Assembly (NCBI GenBank): GCA_029212615.1
Contig: JARGPJ010000001.1
Location: 372,001-436,000 of the forward strand
Direction of reading: 5' to 3'
Source: Verrucomicrobiales bacterium
GTDB taxonomy: Bacteria > Verrucomicrobiota > Verrucomicrobiia > Verrucomicrobiales > DEV007
DNA length: 64,000 bases
The position numbers and the translations under genes were made by a program. The stretch's first letter is position 1. Every line of letters starts with the position of its first letter. Shown here in pieces: positions 6,494 through 64,000 of the stretch. The notes under the pieces were generated by a model. The model had not been told where the DNA came from. It did no database searches and saw only the letters and a list, made by a program, of their open reading frames with translations.

Positions 6494-7929
6494 AAGTGGG
6501 CGCCCTCTTTTTGCTCCTGCTCAGCCCTCTCATCACCCTTAAAGCGGAAGAGCGTCCTCCGAACTTTATCGTCATCTTCTGCGATAACCTCGGGTATGGC
6601 GACATCGAACCCTTCGGTTCAACGATTCATCGCACCCCGCACCTCAACCGCATGGCAGAGGAAGGGCGAAAATTCACTCACTTCTGCGTCACCGCAGGCG
6701 TCTGCACGCCCTCCCGGGCCAGCCTCATCAGCGGAGCATACGCCCAGCGGGTCGGAATGCATCTGAACAGACGGGATCACCATGTCCTGCGGCCCGTCTC
6801 ACCTTTCGGCCTGCACCCTGATGAAGTCACGATCGCAGAGGAGCTGAAAGAACTCGGCTATCGAACTGCCATGGTCGGCAAATGGCATCTCGGCGATCAG
6901 GAACCCTTTCTCCCGACCCGTCAGGGCTTCGATTATTTCTTCGGCGTCCCCTACTCCGACGACATGACTGAACGCCTCTGGGATCAGGATGGAACACGCT
7001 GGCCACCCCTCCCCCTCATGGAAAATGAAAAGGTCATTGAGGCTCCTGCGGAGCGGAACGGCCTGACAAAACGCTATACCGAAGTGGCGATGAAATGGAT
7101 TAAGGAAAACCATGAAACCCCCTTTTTCCTCTACTTTCCGCAGGCAATGCCGGGGAGCACCGAAACACCCTTTTCCAGTGAAGCCTTCCGGGGTAAGAGC
7201 GCAAACGGTCCCTGGGGTGACTCGATTGAAGAGCTCGACTGGTCGACCGGCCAGCTCCTTGATCAACTCGAAGAACTCGGTATTGCAGAAGACACCCTTG
7301 TGGTGTGGACTTCAGATAACGGCGCCCCCATTCAACGAACTGCCGGAGATTTCACCAGAGGCTCCAATCAACCCCTCCATGGACGCGGATACACGACCAG
7401 TGAAGGCGCCTTTCGCGTGCCCACCCTGATATGGCAGCCCGGTAAAGTGCCTGCCAAGACAACTTGCGAAGAATTCTCCACCACCATGGATCTGCTGCCG
7501 ACCTTTGTCGCCATGGCAGGAGGAAATCCCGTCTCCAAATTAAAACGGGATGGCTACGACATCTCCGATCTCATCCTTGGAACGGAAAAGGCCAAAACCC
7601 CCTACCCCTATTTTGCCTACTACTACCTCGATCAACTCCAGGCAATCAGATCAGGCCCCTGGAAGCTATTTCTACCTCTGAATGCTTTCCCGAGACACCC
7701 TCACTACAAGAGGAGCCATCAAAAAAGCGGCCCTCTTCTATTTAACGTCGTCGAAGATGTCGCCAGTGAAATCAATGTAGCGGATCAACATCCGGAAATC
7801 GTTGCGAGGCTCTCAGCCTACGCTGACGCGATGAGAGCCGACCTCGGGGATCGCGATGCCCCGGGACCCGGGATGAGAAAACCGGGGAAAGTTGAGACCC
7901 CGCTTCCCATCGTAATGACCGGAGAATAA
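6490..7929 (+). CDS. Secreted sulfatase (formylglycine-dependent), CTPSR type
   Basis: Sulfatase of 479 residues. The ATG at 6490 gives a clean signal peptide (MKVGALFLLLLSPLITLKA); a longer upstream frame would remove it. The formylglycine motif C72-T-P-S-R76 followed by ASLISG is intact, as are the metal/phosphate-binding GKWHLG and TSDNGAP motifs. The usual N-terminal Asp-Asp metal pair is Asp32-Asn33 (CDNLGYGD). It would act outside the cytoplasm on sulfated glycans. No maturase gene (FGE or anSME) is in the window. Coupled to the preceding membrane protein gene. Confidence 0.93.
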   Translation: MKVGALFLLLLSPLITLKAEERPPNFIVIFCDNLGYGDIEPFGSTIHRTPHLNRMAEEGRKFTHFCVTAGVCTPSRASLISGAYAQRVGMHLNRRDHHVLRPVSPFGLHPDEVTIAEELKELGYRTAMVGKWHLGDQEPFLPTRQGFDYFFGVPYSDDMTERLWDQDGTRWPPLPLMENEKVIEAPAERNGLTKRYTEVAMKWIKENHETPFFLYFPQAMPGSTETPFSSEAFRGKSANGPWGDSIEELDWSTGQLLDQLEELGIAEDTLVVWTSDNGAPIQRTAGDFTRGSNQPLHGRGYTTSEGAFRVPTLIWQPGKVPAKTTCEEFSTTMDLLPTFVAMAGGNPVSKLKRDGYDISDLILGTEKAKTPYPYFAYYYLDQLQAIRSGPWKLFLPLNAFPRHPHYKRSHQKSGPLLFNVVEDVASEINVADQHPEIVARLSAYADAMRADLGDRDAPGPGMRKPGKVETPLPIVMTGE

Positions 7930-7969
7930 GGCTTTTTCCCGCCGCGCAACCGCGAGAGAAGGAAAAGCC
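7930..7969. terminator. Likely bidirectional terminator hairpin
   Basis: Imperfect inverted repeat GGCTTTTTCC ... GGAAAAGCC with a GC-rich loop, lying between two convergent genes (sulfatase and A-type Fe-S protein). The T-rich arm gives a short U run on either transcript. Confidence 0.5.
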
Positions 7970-7983
7970 GGGGGACCGGACCG

Positions 7984-8346
7984 CTACGCTGCAAAACTCT
8001 CGCCACAGGAACAAGTCACGACCGCATTCGGGTTCGTCACCTTAAAGCCGCCCTGTTGAAGATCCTCGCTGAAATCCAGTTCAGAGCCCGTCACAAATAG
8101 AGCACTCTTCGGATCGATGACGACGCGGACCTCGTTCGACTCAACCATGATATCCCGGTTCGCCGGACCGTCGACAAGATCCATCTTGTATTGTAATCCT
8201 GAGCATCCCCCGCCAATGACAGCGACACGAAGCGCTCCATGATCGAGACGTCCCTGCTTTTTCAAGAGGGAACGAAGCTTGTTCGATGCCCCATCGAGGA
8301 CCTTGATAAGGGTTTCATTACCCAGCTTAAAATTGACTTCACTCAC
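7984..8346 (-). CDS. A-type iron-sulfur carrier protein (IscA/ErpA/HesB)
   Basis: Fe-S cluster carrier of 120 residues, standard length for the family. The three cluster-binding cysteines are C48 (GGGCSGLQY), C112 and C114 (TCSCGESF). It would accept [2Fe-2S] or [4Fe-4S] clusters from the scaffold and pass them to apoproteins in the cytoplasm. It sits 49 bases downstream of the helicase gene on the same strand; I see no isc/suf partners, so whether it is ErpA, IscA or SufA cannot be decided. Confidence 0.92.
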   Translation of the reverse strand: MSEVNFKLGNETLIKVLDGASNKLRSLLKKQGRLDHGALRVAVIGGGCSGLQYKMDLVDGPANRDIMVESNEVRVVIDPKSALFVTGSELDFSEDLQQGGFKVTNPNAVVTCSCGESFAA

Positions 8347-57238: not shown

Positions 57239-58180
57239 CTAGGATGCCTTACGTATCTCGAGGAGGCGCTCCGTTCGCAGAGTCAGCGTGTTCACCACAT
57301 TCCGTGTGATTCCGGCAAAAACCTCTTCAATCATTTGCGGCTCATGACGCGGGTCACGATGAATAGCCCATCGCCGCTTCCGGTTCTTCCAGGGAAGCTT
57401 GCGAAAGACAAGTGATCCCTGCGCGACCTCATGCTCAGCAACCCATGGCGAGAGTAAACCGATTCCCATTCCGATTTTCGCCATCTCTTTAATGGCTGCC
57501 ATACTACCAACCTGCATCGCCGTTTTTAATCGAATGCCACTGCTCAGCGATTCGTTTTCAAGAACCCGGAAAGTTTCACTGGCCTGGTTGTAAAAAATAA
57601 AGCTCTCTTCAAGGATATCCTCAGCTTTCACTTTCGCCTTCGAAGCAAGCGGGTGCAAAGGAGACAGCGCCATTTGAATATGATCCTCGAAGAGCGTCTC
57701 ACATTTCAACGAATCTGAAAATGAAGTCTCCAGGGCGACGGCGACATCTATCTCTCCGGCTTCAACAAGAGACATCAATCCCCTCGAATCATCTGTCGTC
57801 ACCGCGATATCAAAAGCAGGAAAGCTCTCCCGCAATTCCCGAAGCACTGAAGGTAGCACGTACTGGCTGATCGTCACCGTCGCCCCAATCCGGAGTCGAC
57901 CATAACCGGGACGCTCCAACTGCTTCAACTCTTCCTGAGCCCGCACCATTCGAGATAGAATCTGATCGGCTTGAGGCAATAAAGCTTCTCCCGCCCGGGT
58001 TAATCTGACGGTCTTCCCAAGCCGTTCGAACAGAACAATTTCAAGAGAACGTTCCAGCGCTTTGATTGAATGGCTCACCGCCGATTGAGTGAGGTTTAAC
58101 GCCTTCGCCGCTGCCGTAAAACTGCCATTCCTGGCAAGCTCCTGAAATGCACGAAGTTGTCGGCTATCGAGTAATTCCAT
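57239..58180 (-). CDS. LysR-type regulator of the nitrate cluster
   Basis: 313 residues. N-terminal winged HTH (residues about 15-65: GSFTAAAKALNLTQSAVSHSIKALE) and a C-terminal type 2 periplasmic-binding-like effector domain (LRIGATVTISQYVLPSVL, LMSLVEAGEIDVAVALE). Divergently oriented to the NasS-like gene with a perfect T-N11-A dyad between them. Relatives of this layout control assimilation of nitrogen or sulfur sources. Likely autoregulated. Confidence 0.9.
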   Translation of the reverse strand: MELLDSRQLRAFQELARNGSFTAAAKALNLTQSAVSHSIKALERSLEIVLFERLGKTVRLTRAGEALLPQADQILSRMVRAQEELKQLERPGYGRLRIGATVTISQYVLPSVLRELRESFPAFDIAVTTDDSRGLMSLVEAGEIDVAVALETSFSDSLKCETLFEDHIQMALSPLHPLASKAKVKAEDILEESFIFYNQASETFRVLENESLSSGIRLKTAMQVGSMAAIKEMAKIGMGIGLLSPWVAEHEVAQGSLVFRKLPWKNRKRRWAIHRDPRHEPQMIEEVFAGITRNVVNTLTLRTERLLEIRKAS

Positions 58181-58194
58181 CGCCTTTAGATATG

Positions 58195-58221
58195 AGTTTC
58201 ATTCATCGTTTTCATGAAACT
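58195..58221. promoter_or_regulatory. LysR binding box, T-N11-A dyad
   Basis: AGTTTCAT-N11-ATGAAACT: eight perfect base pairs on each side of an 11-base spacer, with T58202 and A58214 as the conserved pair. It starts 14 bases before the lysR start and lies about 63 bases upstream of the divergent NasS-like gene, the usual place for an LTTR recognition site that controls both directions. Confidence 0.75.
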
Positions 58222-58283
58222 ATTGAAAGCAGCTTTTAGACCAGAATCGCACAAATGGCACAAAAAGGGCTTTCCAGTAGGGC

Positions 58284-59321
58284 ATGCAAAGCCATCGAAA
58301 ACGCCACTCTGATACTATCCGCCTCGGGTTTGTCCCGCTGGTAGATTGCGCTTCGATCGCCGTAGCATATGAAACCGGCCTCTTCCAAAAACGGGGTCTG
58401 AATGTCGAACTGATGCGTGAACCGGGCTGGGCGACGATTCGTGACAAAATGGCCTACGGTGAACTCGAAGCTGTTCACGCGCCTGTCGGCTTAGCATTCG
58501 CACTCAACTGGGGTCTGGGCGTACTCAAACACCCCTGTTCCACCGGCTACCTTCTGAACTCGAACGGGGATGCCATCACGATCTCGAAAAGCCTGCATGA
58601 TGAAGGCATCGTCGACCCGGAATCTCTTGCTCACCGCCTCAAAACAACCCGGCAAGAGCGCCCTTTCACCTTCGGCGTACCACATCTTTTCAGCACGCAT
58701 CATTTCCTTCTCCTTCAATGGCTGCGGCCTGCCGGCATCCTGGCGAACCATCACATAGATATCGCAGTCCTCCCCCCTTCCCTCATGACGTCCTGTCTCG
58801 CCGCAGGAAACATCGACGGCTACTGCGTCGGTGAACCTTTCAATACCATGGCAGTGCGTGAGGGCTCCGGGGTGATTCTCGCAGAATCAGCAGATCTCTC
58901 ACCGATGCACCCTGAAAAGGCGCTCATCGTCAGTGATGACTTCAACGCGTTGGAGCACGAAACCCATCTCGAAATGATTCGGGCCATCGATGAAGCAGCG
59001 GTGCTTTGCGAAACTCATGACGGCAGAGAGCAAGCTGTCGAAATTCTTTCCCAACCTCACTATCTCGGCATCGAACCCGGCCTCATTCGCTCCAGTCTTT
59101 TCGCCGGTGAAGATAGCGAAGTCTCAAGCGAGTCCTTTCATATTTTCTCCCATCCCGATGTAAACCGACCGGACGCCGACAAGGCAAACTGGCTCGTCGC
59201 CCAGATGAGGAATGCTGGGCTTCTCAACCTCGTCAATACCAAGGCCGGCCCGCCACTCAGCCACATTTTCCGGGAGGATCTTTTTGATGAAGCCATGTCT
59301 TCACTTACTCCCGCATCCTAA
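58284..59321 (+). CDS. Cytoplasmic NrtA-like nitrate-binding protein (NasS-like)
   Basis: 345 residues of the NMT1/NrtA/CmpA substrate-binding fold: IRLGFVPLVDCASIAVAYE, LNVELMREPGWATIRDK, HAPVGLAFAL, and NIDGYCVGEPFN. There is no signal peptide; the N-terminus is charged (MQSHRKRHSD). This is the layout of NasS, the cytosolic nitrate sensor that holds the antiterminator NasT in Proteobacteria. No NasT (ANTAR protein) gene is seen nearby, so here it may feed another regulator such as the LysR, or act like the regulatory C-terminal NrtA-like domain of cyanobacterial NrtC, which is lacking in the NrtC protein of this cluster. Confidence 0.8.
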   Translation: MQSHRKRHSDTIRLGFVPLVDCASIAVAYETGLFQKRGLNVELMREPGWATIRDKMAYGELEAVHAPVGLAFALNWGLGVLKHPCSTGYLLNSNGDAITISKSLHDEGIVDPESLAHRLKTTRQERPFTFGVPHLFSTHHFLLLQWLRPAGILANHHIDIAVLPPSLMTSCLAAGNIDGYCVGEPFNTMAVREGSGVILAESADLSPMHPEKALIVSDDFNALEHETHLEMIRAIDEAAVLCETHDGREQAVEILSQPHYLGIEPGLIRSSLFAGEDSEVSSESFHIFSHPDVNRPDADKANWLVAQMRNAGLLNLVNTKAGPPLSHIFREDLFDEAMSSLTPAS

Positions 59322-59351
59322 CGCTCTCACCCTCCTAACGGACCCCACCCC

Positions 59352-60716
59352 ATGAAAACCAAACCTATCATCACGATCGCTTTTGCCGCCTGTCTTCTTG
59401 CCGGAACAGCTTTATCTCATGCTGACCTTCTCGATGTAGAAAAGGACACGCTCAAATTCGGTTTCATCAAACTGACGGACTGCGCCCCCATCGTGATCGC
59501 CAAAGAAAAAGGCTATTTTGATGACGAGGGCCTGAGCGTCACGGTCGAAGCCCAGGGGAACTGGAAAGAGTTACTGAACAGGGTCATCACGGGTGACCTC
59601 GACGGCGCCCACATGCTCGCAGGCCAACCCATCGGAGCCACCGTCGGATTCGGCACTCAAGCCGAAATCATGACGGCCTACAGTCTCGACTACAACGGGA
59701 ACGGAATCACGGTTTCGAACGATCTCTGGGCCCGAATGAAGCCTGGGATTCCCGCCGATGCTGACGGGTCACCGATCCACCCTATCACCGCCGACAGTCT
59801 CAAACCAATTTCAGATGCCTCCCTCGCCGCAAATAACAAACTTAAAATGGGCATGGTGTTTCCCGTTTCGACACACAACTATGAAATCCGCTACTGGCTC
59901 GCAGCTGCAGGTATCAGGCCCGGTTTCTACTACGACCCTACCACAGGACAAGTCGATGTTCCGGGCTTCCTGAATGGGGACGTCGAACTCTCTGTGACCC
60001 CGCCCCCTCAAATGCCGCAGACTCTCGAGCAGGGAACTATCGCCGGCTACTGCGTCGGTGAACCCTGGAATCAGCAGGCGGTCGTCAAAGGAATCGGTGT
60101 TCCCGTGACGACCAACTACGACATCTGGAAGAACAATCCTGAAAAAGTCTTCGGGGTCTCGAGGGAGTGGGCGGAAGCAAATCCCAATACCTGGATCGCC
60201 GTCACGAAAGCTCTTATCCGGGCCGGCCATTGGCTGGACGCAGCACGCGGGAACCGGGTCGAAGCGGCAAAGATCCTCTCTAAACCCAACTACGTAGGGG
60301 CCCCTTTCGAGGTGATCAGCAACAGCATGACCGGAACCTTCGAATTCGAGAAAGGAGACAAACGCGAAATGCCTGACTTTAACGTATTTTTCCGCCACAA
60401 CGCCAGCTTCCCCTACTACAGCGACTGCGTCTGGTTCCTCACTCAAATGATCCGGTGGGGCCAAATTACAGAGCAGCAGCCTGACAGCTACTTCGAGGAA
60501 ATGGCCCGGAGAATCTACCGTCCTGATGTCTACATGGAAGCAGTCAAAGAACTCATCGACGACGGCGAGTTTACCGAAGACGATTTTGCAGATGCATTCT
60601 TCGCTTTCGAAAACGGAGGCTACAAGCCTTCAACCACCGACTTCATCGACGGCAAAGAATACGACGGCACAAAGCCAAACGAATACATCCAGTCATTTGA
60701 AATCGGGCTGAAATAG
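59352..60716 (+). CDS. nrtA: Periplasmic nitrate-binding protein NrtA
   Basis: 454 residues with a Sec signal peptide (cleavage probably after ALSHA). Core motifs match the NrtA/CmpA family: [71 protein letters not shown] and [15 protein letters not shown]. The family binds nitrate or bicarbonate; nitrate is preferred because of the neighbouring genes. It is the substrate receptor for the permease encoded next. Confidence 0.9.
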
Positions 60717-60802
60717 CCGGCACAAAGAGAACTCTTCCCACTCCCTGAAAAGAAAAGCAGACCGGGGATTCTATCAGACCAACATCTACCCGCGAGAAGC
60801 AC

Positions 60803-62041
60803 ATGGAAACAACCGCAACAGCAGGCGTGACGCCAAACGATTCAAAACCCGGAAAGGCAAAATTCACCTTCAATCCGAACCGGGTCGCTCACAACCTGAA
60901 CAAATTGGGCCTCGGATACTTCTCGCCTTTTGCCCGACTCATCGCCAAAGACGAGCCGGCAAAACAGATAAAAGAAATAGCAACGAACACCATTCTTCCC
61001 ATCATTGCCTTCCTCATCTTCGTCGCGTTATGGGCAATTACCGCCAAAGCAGTCAAAACAGATAGCGTACAAATTCCAAGTCCACACCAATCCTGGTATG
61101 CACTGACGGGAACGGCCCTTCCCGGATTCTCCCACCCCTTCCCTGAAAGCATTGAAGGCCTTGAGAAACCATTCTTTGAAGACAATGCAGGAATGGATCC
61201 CAAATCGATCAACGGTTTCGCCCAGGCGGAGACCGTTGCCAGGGAAACCTATCAAACAGCCAGGCAGGAACGTGTCGACAAGTACATGAGCCGTTCCAAC
61301 GAGGCGGCGGCATCGGGGGATCTCGAGAAAGCGGAAAAATACAAAGGGAACGCTGAGATGTTCGCGTCAAAAACCTACGCGGGTAACAAGACTTTCTACG
61401 ACCAGATCTGGATCTCTCTCCTCACGGTCTCAATCGGTTTCGTCATCGCCACTCTCATCGCGGTCCCAATCGGAGTCCTCTGTGGGATCTCACCCATGTT
61501 CAACACCGCAGTGAATCCACTCATTCAGCTCTTCAAGCCGGTGAGTCCTCTCGCCTGGTTTCCCATTGTCTTTGTGATCACAACCTGGGGAATCGAAGCA
61601 CCTCCATCGGACTCAATCTGGCAACGCGCTCTTTTTACCTCTGCAGGAGTCGTCATGCTTTGTTCACTCTGGCCGACCCTCATCAACACCGCGGTCGGCG
61701 TAGCCTCGGTTGACAAAGATCACCTCAATGTCGCCAAAGTGTTGAAACTGGGTTGGTTCAAAAGGATCTGGAAAATTATTCTCCCGGCTTCGCTTCCACT
61801 CATCTTCACCGGCCTCCGCCTTTCCATCGGGGTGGGCTGGATGGTCCTGATCGCCGCAGATATGATGGCTCAGAACCAGGGTCTCGGGAAGTTTGTCTGG
61901 GACATGTACCAGAACGGAGACACCATGAGCACCGCTCAGATCATCGTCGCCGTATTCGTCATCGGGGCAGTAGGATTCGCGCTCGACCGCATCATGCTCG
62001 TGTGCCAGCGACTCGTTACTTTCGAAGAACAGTCCATCTAG
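60803..62041 (+). CDS. nrtB: Nitrate ABC permease NrtB with large periplasmic insertion
   Basis: 412 residues, about 130 more than typical NrtB. A 60-residue N-terminal extension precedes membrane segment 1 (62-82). The IPSPHQSW motif is then followed by a highly charged, helical insertion (about 120-195; FFEDNAGMDPKSINGF, REERV-like RQERVDKYMSR) before the standard five-helix permease core with VAVPIG-like sequences, TVGVASVDKDHLNVAKVL and the coupling helix LPASLPLIFTGLR. The insertion would be outside the membrane, possibly as an NrtA docking element. Confidence 0.9.
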   Translation: METTATAGVTPNDSKPGKAKFTFNPNRVAHNLNKLGLGYFSPFARLIAKDEPAKQIKEIATNTILPIIAFLIFVALWAITAKAVKTDSVQIPSPHQSWYALTGTALPGFSHPFPESIEGLEKPFFEDNAGMDPKSINGFAQAETVARETYQTARQERVDKYMSRSNEAAASGDLEKAEKYKGNAEMFASKTYAGNKTFYDQIWISLLTVSIGFVIATLIAVPIGVLCGISPMFNTAVNPLIQLFKPVSPLAWFPIVFVITTWGIEAPPSDSIWQRALFTSAGVVMLCSLWPTLINTAVGVASVDKDHLNVAKVLKLGWFKRIWKIILPASLPLIFTGLRLSIGVGWMVLIAADMMAQNQGLGKFVWDMYQNGDTMSTAQIIVAVFVIGAVGFALDRIMLVCQRLVTFEEQSI

Positions 62042-62064
62042 TTCACCTCAATGAAATTCATACC

Positions 62065-62967
62065 ATGGCATATATAGAACTGAACAATGTCTCAGTAGGG
62101 TTCGGATCAGGAACAAACCGTTCCGAAGTCCTAACCGATATTAATCTCCACATGGAGAAGGGTGAATTCGTCGCCATTCTGGGATATTCAGGCACAGGCA
62201 AATCAACGATCATGAACCTGATCGCCGGACTCGTAAAACCGGATAAAGGGGAAGTGCTCGTTGATGGAAAAAAGGTCGCAGGACCGGGCCCCGATCGCGG
62301 CCTCGTTTTCCAAAATTATTCACTACTTCCGTGGTTTGACGTCTATACAAACGTCGGACTCGCCGTCAATGAAGTCTACCCGGATAAGTCTTCGAAAACG
62401 AAGGACATGCTCATTCGCGAAGCGATTGACAGAGTCAACCTGACCGATGCCATTCACAAAAAGCCGGGCGAACTCTCCGGAGGGATGCGCCAGCGGAACT
62501 CGGTCGCAAGAACCCTCTCAATGAACCCTGAGGTGCTCTTGTTAGATGAACCGTTGAGCGCCCTTGACGCCCTCACTCGTTCCGTCATTCAGGACGAGAT
62601 CCTGAAGATTTGGAAGGAACTGGGGCAGACCATCATCCTCATCACCAATGACGTGGATGAAGGCCTCTACATGGCCGACCGGATCATTCCTCTCAGCGTA
62701 GGGCCGCCTGCAACCTTTGGCCCCGAGACCATCGTTCAAAAAGAAAGACCTCGCGACCGTAGAGCAATCACTACCGGGTCCGAGTATCACCCTCTGCGAC
62801 AAGAAGTCATCGAATTCCTCCTCGGAGAGAAGGAAAAAGAACGCGCCGGCTCAGAAAGCAAAGCCGTCTCGCTTCCTAACATCAGCCCAATGGACATCAG
62901 CCGGCACAAGCCAAGCTGGTTCCTCGGACTTCGACCCAAAGCTAGAAAAGCCATCAACGCCGCGTGA
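62065..62967 (+). CDS. nrtC: Nitrate ABC ATPase, NrtC-like, H-loop His replaced by Asn
   Basis: 300 residues. Walker A GYSGTGKST (40-48), Q-loop Q83, signature LSGGMRQR (137-144), Walker B LLLDEP (158-163), D-loop SALD. The switch His is missing: the sequence is ITNDVDE with Asn195 where the family has THDVDE. The codon is AAT, so no sequencing ambiguity of His (CAT) is visible. It lacks the large C-terminal NrtA-like domain of cyanobacterial NrtC but has a 60-residue tail. The ATG at 62065 is preferred; the frame extends upstream inside nrtB. Confidence 0.9.
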   Translation: MAYIELNNVSVGFGSGTNRSEVLTDINLHMEKGEFVAILGYSGTGKSTIMNLIAGLVKPDKGEVLVDGKKVAGPGPDRGLVFQNYSLLPWFDVYTNVGLAVNEVYPDKSSKTKDMLIREAIDRVNLTDAIHKKPGELSGGMRQRNSVARTLSMNPEVLLLDEPLSALDALTRSVIQDEILKIWKELGQTIILITNDVDEGLYMADRIIPLSVGPPATFGPETIVQKERPRDRRAITTGSEYHPLRQEVIEFLLGEKEKERAGSESKAVSLPNISPMDISRHKPSWFLGLRPKARKAINAA

Positions 62968-62970
62968 ATT

Positions 62971-63762
62971 ATGTCCTATTTCGAAGCCATTAACCTAGGT
63001 AAAACCTACAAGACGCCCTCCGGGGACGCCGTCATTGTAGAAGGGTTTGACCTCAAGATGAAGAAGGGTGAATTCGTCTGTGTCCTCGGTCATTCAGGGT
63101 GCGGAAAATCGACGGTGCTCTCGATGGTCGCCGGATTGAACGATATCAGTAACGGCAGCGTTCTCCTCGACCACCGGGAAATCGAGGGAGCCGGTCCCGA
63201 CCGGGGCGTCGTTTTCCAATCCCCCTGCCTCCTGCCCTGGATGACCACCCGGGATAATGTCATGCTGGGCGTTGAACAAGTCTACTATCATGCGACCACG
63301 GAAGAACGGCACAGAATCGTTGATTACTACCTCGCTGCAGTCGGACTAACCGAAGCAGCTGACAAGCGCCCTGCCGAACTCTCGGGAGGGATGCGCCAGC
63401 GAGTTGGCCTAGCCCGCGCTTTTGCCTTGAACCCCAAAATGTTGCTCCTGGATGAGCCGTTCGGCATGCTCGACAAACTCACCAAGTTCGAGCTCCAGCA
63501 AGTCCTCATTGATCTTTGGAATCGGGAACGACTTACGGCAATGATGATCACTCACGATGTCGATGAAGCCATCTACCTCGCCGACAGAATCGTCATGATG
63601 ACAAACGGTCCCGCCGCCCGTGTTGGAGAAATCGTGACGATCGACTTCGAACGTCCCCGTGATCGTCGCGACATCATGGCAGATCTCAAGTACCTCGAAT
63701 ACCGGGAACAGCTCATCAGCTTTCTTGAAGAACGTGTCTACCTACTGGACAAAGCCGCCTAA
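62971..63762 (+). CDS. nrtD: Nitrate ABC ATPase NrtD
   Basis: 263 residues with all motifs: Walker [11 protein letters not shown]-loop FQSP, signature LSGGMRQR, Walker [12 protein letters not shown] and H-loop [14 protein letters not shown]. The DEPFGMLD wording matches NrtD/CmpD. It should form a heterodimer with the NrtC-like protein, in which only one composite site has a normal H-loop. It starts four bases after nrtC. Confidence 0.93.
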
Positions 63763-63775
63763 CCGACAAGCTGTG

Positions 63776-64000
63776 ATGAAAGCCCTGCCATCCATTCCAC
63801 CCTCATCGCCATTTTCCGAAGACCAGCGCCTCTGGCTCAACGGATACATTGCCGGTATGATCTCAGAAGCGGAGGATTCTCCGCCGCTTTCGAGCACTCC
63901 GAAAGTCCGCGTTCCGGTGATGTATGCAAGCCAGTCCGGCAACAGTGAAGGTCTCGCTGAGAGCTTCGCCGGACAACTCTCAGAAGCCGGCTTTGATGCG
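63776..64000 (+). CDS. Diflavin reductase subunit (CysJ-like/assimilatory reductase flavoprotein), partial
   Basis: First 75 codons of a gene running off the window. The head (PFSEDQRLWLNGYIAGM) and the flavodoxin FMN-binding start (RVPVMYASQSGNSEGLAESF) match sulfite-reductase-type flavoproteins and the diflavin partners of assimilatory nitrate/nitrite reductases. Located 13 bases after nrtD, it is likely part of the nitrate operon. What lies beyond is not visible. Confidence 0.8.
   Translation, partial: MKALPSIPPSSPFSEDQRLWLNGYIAGMISEAEDSPPLSSTPKVRVPVMYASQSGNSEGLAESFAGQLSEAGFDA

Follow-up and report, generated by a model that had tools for sequence, protein, structure and literature searches.

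Gene layout of the locus

We analysed a window of 64,000 nt (contig positions 372001-436000) from a genome of 4.55 Mb in 21 contigs that is 93.8% complete. From left to right, the locus holds a porin-like gene, lysR, the sensor gene, nrtA, nrtB, nrtC and nrtD. Past the window end, open reading frames and Pfam matches identified a flavodoxin-type reductase, a NirA-type nitrite reductase and a molybdopterin NasA-type reductase. The nrtABCD genes span 59352-63762, and 30 nt separate the sensor stop codon from the nrtA start on the same strand. A preliminary description of this DNA had noted an NrtA-fold protein free of a signal peptide, a divergent LysR and nrtABCD downstream; Pfam, the N-terminus test and the gene layout bore out each of these. 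The features are as follows.

57239-58180, minus strand: LysR-family regulator gene, divergent from the sensor gene (Pfam HTH_1 and LysR_substrate; belongs to the single clade of sensor-adjoining LysR proteins)
58192-58206, no strand assigned: predicted LysR-type box ATGAA-N5-TTCAT (T-N11-A); the window copy, ATGAGTTTCATTCAT, has one mismatch and is centred at about -83 from the predicted sensor start site (dyad count over 77 clustered loci)
58228-58244, minus strand: weak sigma-54-type promoter facing lysR, CTGGTCTAAAAGCTGCT, predicted start at about 58217 (score 10.4, below the threshold of 11, yet 15 nt away from the forward -24 element, the spacing that is conserved)
58255-58271, plus strand: sigma-54-type promoter facing the sensor gene, ATGGCACAAAAAGGGCT, GG-N10-GC, predicted start at about 58282, 2 nt before the ATG (core TGGCA-N8-GC conserved)
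58284-59321, plus strand: cytoplasmic NrtA-fold sensor, NasS-like, of a LysR-linked subfamily, 345 aa (Pfam, structure model, tree branch 100/100)
59352-60716, plus strand: NrtA with an N-terminal signal-like stretch (Pfam, N-terminus test)
60803-62041, plus strand: NrtB permease, 412 aa, with a long N-terminal extension (BPD_transp_1 at residues 220-397; best NCBIfam match ntrB, below cut-off)
62056-62967, plus strand: NrtC ATPase without an NrtA-like C-terminal domain, 303 aa (ABC_tran only; TIGR01184 278 bits, below cut-off)
62971-63762, plus strand: NrtD ATPase (TIGR01184 320 bits, over cut-off)
63776-64000, plus strand: 5' part of the flavodoxin-type reductase gene, which runs past the window and is followed by the NirA- and NasA-type genes (open reading frame, Pfam; the start codon is a chosen one)

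In the window NrtB (60803-62041), an N-terminal part of about 200 residues precedes the permease domain; some other Verrucomicrobiota NrtB proteins are about 294 aa long.

The sensor protein

The product of 58284-59321 matched Pfam NMT1_2 (4e-61). By sequence, its best matches among solved structures were the C-terminal regulatory domains of NrtC and CmpC (about 1e-47), and NrtA (2g29) matched at 6.5e-22. The AlphaFold2 model of the sensor (pLDDT 91) superposed on NrtA 2g29 with Z 44.0 and rmsd 1.9 over 330 residues, and on the CmpC/NrtC regulatory domains with Z of about 42. Its N-terminus is short and polar, and no export signal was found there in a test in which the neighbouring NrtA was positive. 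Among 127 sensor N-termini, no signal peptide was seen by eye; four contained a 12-residue window above 1.8.

We compared the ligand pocket at what we take to be the nitrate-pocket positions of NrtA. The Trp, His and Lys of the pocket are all present in the window sensor. Over 85 sensor clusters, Trp was retained in 84 (with one gap), Lys in 84, His in 77 and Pro in 80. The position of NrtA Gln155 is Asn or Asp in the sensors and mostly Asn in proteobacterial NasS. Judged from its sequence, the protein is a cytoplasmic NrtA-fold sensor with conserved nitrate-pocket positions, and its ligand would be nitrate or nitrite.

Pairing of sensor and LysR genes across Verrucomicrobiota

We searched an even sample of 288 Verrucomicrobiota genomes and obtained sensor-profile matches in 48. 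With a cut of E<=1e-90 for stand-alone sensors, chosen after the list was seen, 40 of the 48 carried such genes, 43 in total; the remainder had NrtA or long ABC fusions. The co-occurrence of sensor and LysR in this phylum, raised as a check in the preliminary description, was found throughout: a lysR gene lay divergent from and directly upstream of 41 of the 43 sensor genes, with at least one such arrangement in every sensor-bearing genome (40/40). The two exceptions were G085:C150, where LysR is at the opposite end of the operon, and a second sensor copy in G181. Among all collected loci, a set biased to near relatives, 122 of 133 unique sensor entries had a divergent lysR, the total being inflated by split genes (L069 counted twice, L048 in two pieces). 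The 11 entries lacking one were L069 (twice), L052 (whose operon has LysR at its opposite end), L079, L107, L128, L140, L194, the second copies L086 and L130 (contig end) and L095 (contig edge).

The LysR partners formed one clade (99*) among 102 LysR rows, which also included two LysR proteins divergent from nrtA and one distant LysR (G190, L241). Three genomes (G071, G085, G270) carry two sensor-LysR pairs each, and in G071 and G085 the members of each pair fell in matching subclades of the sensor and LysR trees. Over 39 loci, the sensor and LysR distance matrices correlated with r 0.70, or 0.68 as a partial correlation given NrtD, and none of 500 permutations reached as high. The partial correlation of sensor with NrtD given LysR was -0.01 over the same number of loci.

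That the sensor acts together with the divergent LysR, as the preliminary description had suggested for a NasS, is well supported by context, namely the 40/40 pairing, the single LysR clade, the co-variation and a conserved LysR-type box; a physical partnership we infer from this. Verrucomicrobiota probably sense nitrate through a partner other than the RNA-binding NasT.

At locus L241 (4513-6524; G190:C1), a third, distant sensor-like gene with 25% identity is divergent from an in-clade LysR, and there are no nitrate genes around it.

A shared control region with a LysR-type box and sigma-54-type promoters

The control-region set comprised the LysR-sensor intergenic DNA of 77 loci, with sensors clustered at 70% identity. 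Dyads were counted against Markov shuffles. As discovery and counting of the box used the same, related loci, the numbers are descriptive: ATGAA-N5-TTCAT with at most one mismatch occurred in 46 of 77 loci (expected 1.1) and was missing from 31. Its T-N11-A form is presumably that of a LysR box. The core TGGCA-N8-GC was directed towards the sensor in 60 of 77 loci (expected 1.2), on the reverse strand in 13 of 77 and before other LysR genes in 1 of 22. We take GG-N10-GC to be the core of the sigma-54 consensus TGGCACG-N4-TTGC(A/T). A weighted scan placed a forward sigma-54 site in 75 and a reverse one in 54 of the 77 loci, where about 15 of each were expected. No sigma-70 promoter-like match was found between the LysR and sensor genes. 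Neither the box nor the sigma-54 promoters of 58181-58283 had featured in the preliminary description.

The spacing of these elements was also conserved. The -24 elements were 14 or 15 nt apart in 37 of 53 loci with both promoters, and among the 42 loci that have a box, 35 had its centre at positions -81 to -84 relative to the predicted start of the sensor transcript. In 56 of the 73 loci with a site (L048 and L086 left out), the sensor start codon was 1-9 nt past the predicted transcript start, while starts shifted by 10-40 nt put it there in 6.1 loci on average and in at most 15. Start codon and sigma-54 site thus agree as independent signals, which speaks for sigma-54 promoters and gives an antitermination leader no space ahead of the sensor gene. 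Box presence differed with the recognition helix of LysR: a box was present in 45 of 68 loci of the common TQSAxSH type and in 1 of 9 whose helix is altered (helices sorted by eye; Fisher p 0.002, uncorrected for kinship).

The amtB gene is a classical sigma-54 target. Within 1.5 kb upstream of amtB, a sigma-54-type site was present in 24 of 26 loci and the box (at most one mismatch) in 6 of 26. Sites matching what we take to be the NtrC consensus with at most three mismatches occurred in 6 of 77 sensor regions, a count for which no chance level was set. The rpoN gene was found in 282 of the 288 phylum genomes, including all 40 with a sensor. NtrC-family proteins were present in 44 of 44 genomes tested, none of them over the NtrC cut-off. 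The 77 loci show a shared control region at fixed spacing, in which the box is a predicted LysR-bound site.

An operator role was also considered for an 8-bp inverted repeat at 58195-58221, which is perfect and has a spacer of 11 nt. It was rejected: with that spacer the repeat is not conserved in relatives, and the shared box overlaps it.

ANTAR proteins and leader RNA

The preliminary description had seen no ANTAR protein and no antitermination leader, and proposed looking for nasT beyond the window. We found no ANTAR (PF03861) match in the genome, near the locus or elsewhere; at 93.8% completeness this absence is not absolute. That search matched no control genome, and the method was verified separately on NasS-bearing genomes, where all six genomes with proteobacterial NasS gave ANTAR matches. 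In the five of these in which nasT was read as an open reading frame, it lay directly upstream of nasS on the same strand, and Pfam recognised four of the five as response regulator plus ANTAR; in the sixth (L148), nasT was placed by coordinates. The same nasT-nasS layout was present in plasmid examples from Sinorhizobium meliloti, Methylocella tundrae and Haematobacter.

Leader RNA gave the same picture. None of 58181-58283, 59300-59360 and 60700-60810 folded clearly better than shuffled sequences, and no Rfam family exceeded its gathering score in the window leaders. A conserved ANTAR RNA motif upstream of nrtA had been named as evidence that would speak against the earlier proposal; no leader motif was seen.

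ANTAR proteins are rare in the phylum. One genome in the even sample of 288 had one, as did 5 of the 71 Verrucomicrobiota genomes of the positive-control search set. Three of these five have it at the head of a separate nrt operon (L073, NIT-ANTAR; L207 and L208, response regulator-ANTAR), and in genome G256 the sensor with its LysR is at a separate place (L197). Where this phylum has ANTAR control, it thus exists alongside the sensor system linked to LysR and is no substitute for it.

In L207 (G015:C237) and L208 (G398:C315), the response regulator-ANTAR gene directly precedes nrtABC with no separate sensor, and the LysR-sensor loci are elsewhere. In L205 (G007:C11) and L206 (G025:C22), from the genus of the window, a response regulator-ANTAR gene sits beside DUF883-like and response-regulator genes (by eye), away from nitrate genes.

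Sensor-LysR pairs without NrtCD

NrtCD over the TIGR01184 cut-off was missing from 14 of the 40 sensor genomes. We set aside G079 (true nrtCD, 289 bits), G120 (nrtA and nrtB adjoining) and G258 (broken contig), which left 11 genomes, five of them single-contig, that keep the sensor-LysR pair without NrtCD over the cut-off. As the search scored a limited number of candidates per genome, this absence is strong but not absolute. A Methylacidiphilum-type genome (L244) has the order LysR/sensor-NasA-NirB-Rieske-MFS transporter (NasA by similarity, the rest by eye), and in L126 and L173 a NarK-family transporter adjoins the sensor (best NCBIfam match, below cut-off). In the operons of L244, L126, L173 and L243, an MFS transporter takes the place of NrtCD (L244 and L243 by eye). 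The NrtA proteins encoded behind the sensor-LysR pair belong to two lineages in the tree.

Loci linked to urea

A sister subclade (L199:4060-8683, L102:2435-9779, L125:7971-15061) has the sensor-LysR pair before urea transport genes. NCBIfam confirmed urtA, urtB and urtC in L199; the other urea-operon genes were assigned by eye, as were formamidase- and amidase-like genes in the operons of L102 and L125. Members of the urea-linked subclade have an altered LysR recognition helix, and the nitrate-type box is missing. Gln occupies the pocket His position in 7 of 85 sensors and was seen in L050 and L051 of this subclade. The sensor loci with no nitrate gene nearby include L064, L186 and L187. Given the urea-heading subclade and the loci without nitrate genes, the ligand is not nitrate throughout, which suggests that the pairing may have been re-used for other nitrogen sources.

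Relation to NasS and other known systems

In our trees, the sampled Verrucomicrobiota sensors occupied one side of a 100/100 branch separating them from NrtA, NrtC domains and NasT-linked NasS. Trees in which sensors and NasS were held together were not rejected (p-AU 0.209 and 0.30). The earlier idea of a rewired NasS is not established, and neither is membership in NasS: the sensors have their own branch, even if common descent with NasS is compatible with the data. For these proteins on their separate branch, the name NasS is a functional analogy; the defining partner, NasT, is absent.

NasS-NasT is known from Paracoccus, Azotobacter, Pseudomonas and rhizobia (PMC3795266, PMC5424462). There too, an NrtA-fold protein that lacks a signal peptide and keeps the nitrate-pocket positions is linked to nitrate assimilation genes and to nitrogen control; its partner is the RNA-binding ANTAR protein NasT, whereas here it would be a DNA-binding LysR. 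Control here would be transcriptional rather than through leader RNA, and the sensor is on a separate tree branch.

AmiC-AmiR of Pseudomonas likewise has a cytoplasmic sensor of binding-protein fold that acts through a separate regulator, and one subclade here stands before urea operons with amidase-like genes. Unlike LysR, however, AmiR is an ANTAR antiterminator, and AmiC comes from another binding-protein family than the NrtA-fold sensor. The regulatory domains of NrtC and CmpC (8wm7, 9uai, 9u9z) are the closest solved relatives by sequence and share the fold, but here the sensor is a stand-alone gene kept also in genomes without NrtCD. In cyanobacteria, NtcB and CmpR are LysR regulators at nitrate or bicarbonate transport operons, a likeness to the present LysR; we know of no cytoplasmic NrtA-fold partner for them. 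LysR genes from two cyanobacterial genomes fell outside the sensor-linked LysR clade, though NtcB and CmpR are not necessarily among them. NAC of Klebsiella resembles the present arrangement in that its LysR-type gene is driven by a sigma-54/NtrC promoter on which NAC acts in turn; it differs in needing no co-sensor and having no NrtA-fold partner. In titles and abstract openings of the open-licence papers that our searches listed, we found no description of a NasS-like/LysR pair or of such nitrate regulation in Verrucomicrobiota.

A proposed two-protein switch and its alternatives

We consider it likely that 58284-59321 encodes the nitrate/nitrite sensor of a two-protein switch whose partner would be the divergent LysR and not NasT, and which would gate a nitrogen-status sigma-54 promoter for nitrate. 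Under nitrogen limitation, an NtrC-family sigma-54 enhancer-binding protein would open the promoter, and LysR at the -83 box would gate it. Without nitrate, the apo-sensor would keep LysR inactive or repressing; nitrate or nitrite would close the sensor, LysR would be freed or re-set, and the nas/nrt operon would be made. LysR might either activate or merely stop blocking, as the sequence is compatible with both. In the reverse direction, the box would lie about 20 nt inside the lysR transcript, where it is a likely autorepression site. Sigma-54 and the NtrC-type activator would thus supply the nitrogen-status input, and sensor and LysR the nitrate input. The complex, its ligand, the sign of control and the identity of the activator are all putative parts of this scheme. 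As a rule, LysR proteins work at sigma-70 promoters and possess an effector pocket of their own, so that a LysR may need no protein partner; since LysR alone cannot open a sigma-54 promoter, a third protein, an activator, would be required. Also counting against the model are the 31 of 77 loci without a box, the mismatch in the window box and the weak reverse promoter of the window.

Two other readings assign the sensor a different partner altogether. An ordinary NasS-NasT system with NasT hidden in the unsequenced part of the genome is barely credible: the incomplete assembly and the few ANTAR proteins in Verrucomicrobiota would allow it, but ANTAR occurs in only 1 of the 288 genomes of the phylum sample, the ANTAR genes of the five genomes in the positive-control search set head their own nrt operons (three) or lie among unrelated genes (two), and the sensor transcript is predicted to be leaderless. 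The preliminary description had also suggested that the sensor acts on the transporter in place of the domain missing from NrtC, inhibiting or licensing NrtBCD in trans. The lack of that domain in the window NrtC, the sequence kinship of the sensor with the NrtC/CmpC regulatory domains and the 30-nt distance to the transporter genes on one strand are in keeping with this. The 11 genomes with the pair but no NrtCD over the cut-off (five single-contig) and the differing transporters disfavour it, with an MFS transporter instead in L244, L126, L173 and L243, two NrtA lineages behind the pair and a sensor divergence that does not track NrtD; we regard an in-trans role as very improbable.

The remaining two readings accept the shared control region. 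Sensor and LysR may share it and yet work apart, LysR with a small effector of its own and the sensor through some other protein, for example a sensor kinase, PII or the sigma-54 activator. NtcB of cyanobacteria is thought to sense its own small effector, and Pfam shows the effector domain of the window LysR to be complete. The two genes need not always adjoin: in G085 and G106 LysR is divergent from nrtA with the sensor further down the operon, and the sensors of L079, L107, L128, L140 and L194 have no adjoining LysR. Against such independence, the pairing survives duplication (G071, G085, G270), replacement of the transporter and the move to urea operons, and the partial matrix correlation of the two proteins is 0.68; we hold separate working to be unlikely, though not far-fetched. 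Improbable, in our view, is that the -83 palindrome is the upstream site of a sigma-54 activator and not a LysR site. An enhancer-binding protein would fit a site about 83 bp upstream, and the box resembles NtrC sites in being a palindrome with 5-bp spacing. Against this, only 6 of 26 amtB loci have the box upstream, although 24 have sigma-54-type sites; in addition, its presence tracks the LysR recognition helix and its spacing is the T-N11-A form of LysR.

Taking the nitrate-linked and urea-linked loci together, we suggest, tentatively and with slightly less than even confidence, that Verrucomicrobiota have a general class of switches made of a cytoplasmic binding-protein-fold sensor and a LysR, for nitrate and, in the sister subclade, urea or amides, which would replace the ANTAR-based pairs NasS-NasT and AmiC-AmiR of Proteobacteria; acting from a fixed site at -83, LysR would gate a bidirectional sigma-54 promoter, and the mRNA of the sensor would be leaderless. 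If true, this would show nitrate sensing by a whole phylum without NasT, a LysR regulator whose input is a protein and not a small molecule, and the coupling of LysR to sigma-54 promoters at fixed geometry. Genes labelled 'nitrate-binding protein' and 'CbbR' beside nitrate genes here, as in Methylacidiphilum, would then probably encode regulatory proteins.

Nitrogen status and the Methylacidiphilum-type loci

Published RNA-seq of Methylacidiphilum fumariolicum bears on the nitrogen-status input. There, the 'nitrate-binding protein' gene Mfum_140012 rises from 28 to 117 RPKM in N2-fixing cells, as amtB does from 343 to 1143 RPKM, the adjoining LysR gene Mfum_140011 stays flat at 47 and 41 RPKM, and nitrate reductase stands at 13-14 RPKM without nitrate (PMC3404531). 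By gene order, Mfum_140012 would be the sensor, and its rise fits nitrogen-status control of the sensor. The same paper cites Hou et al. 2008 for the coupling of a LysR gene to nitrate genes in strain V4 (PMC3404531). The Methylacidiphilum-type loci L111 and L185 are without the LysR box. In the Methylacidiphilum-type genome of L244, the 416-nt gap between sensor and NasA (7749-8164) folds better than shuffled sequences (z -2.4); an RNA element may lie there, or a second promoter.
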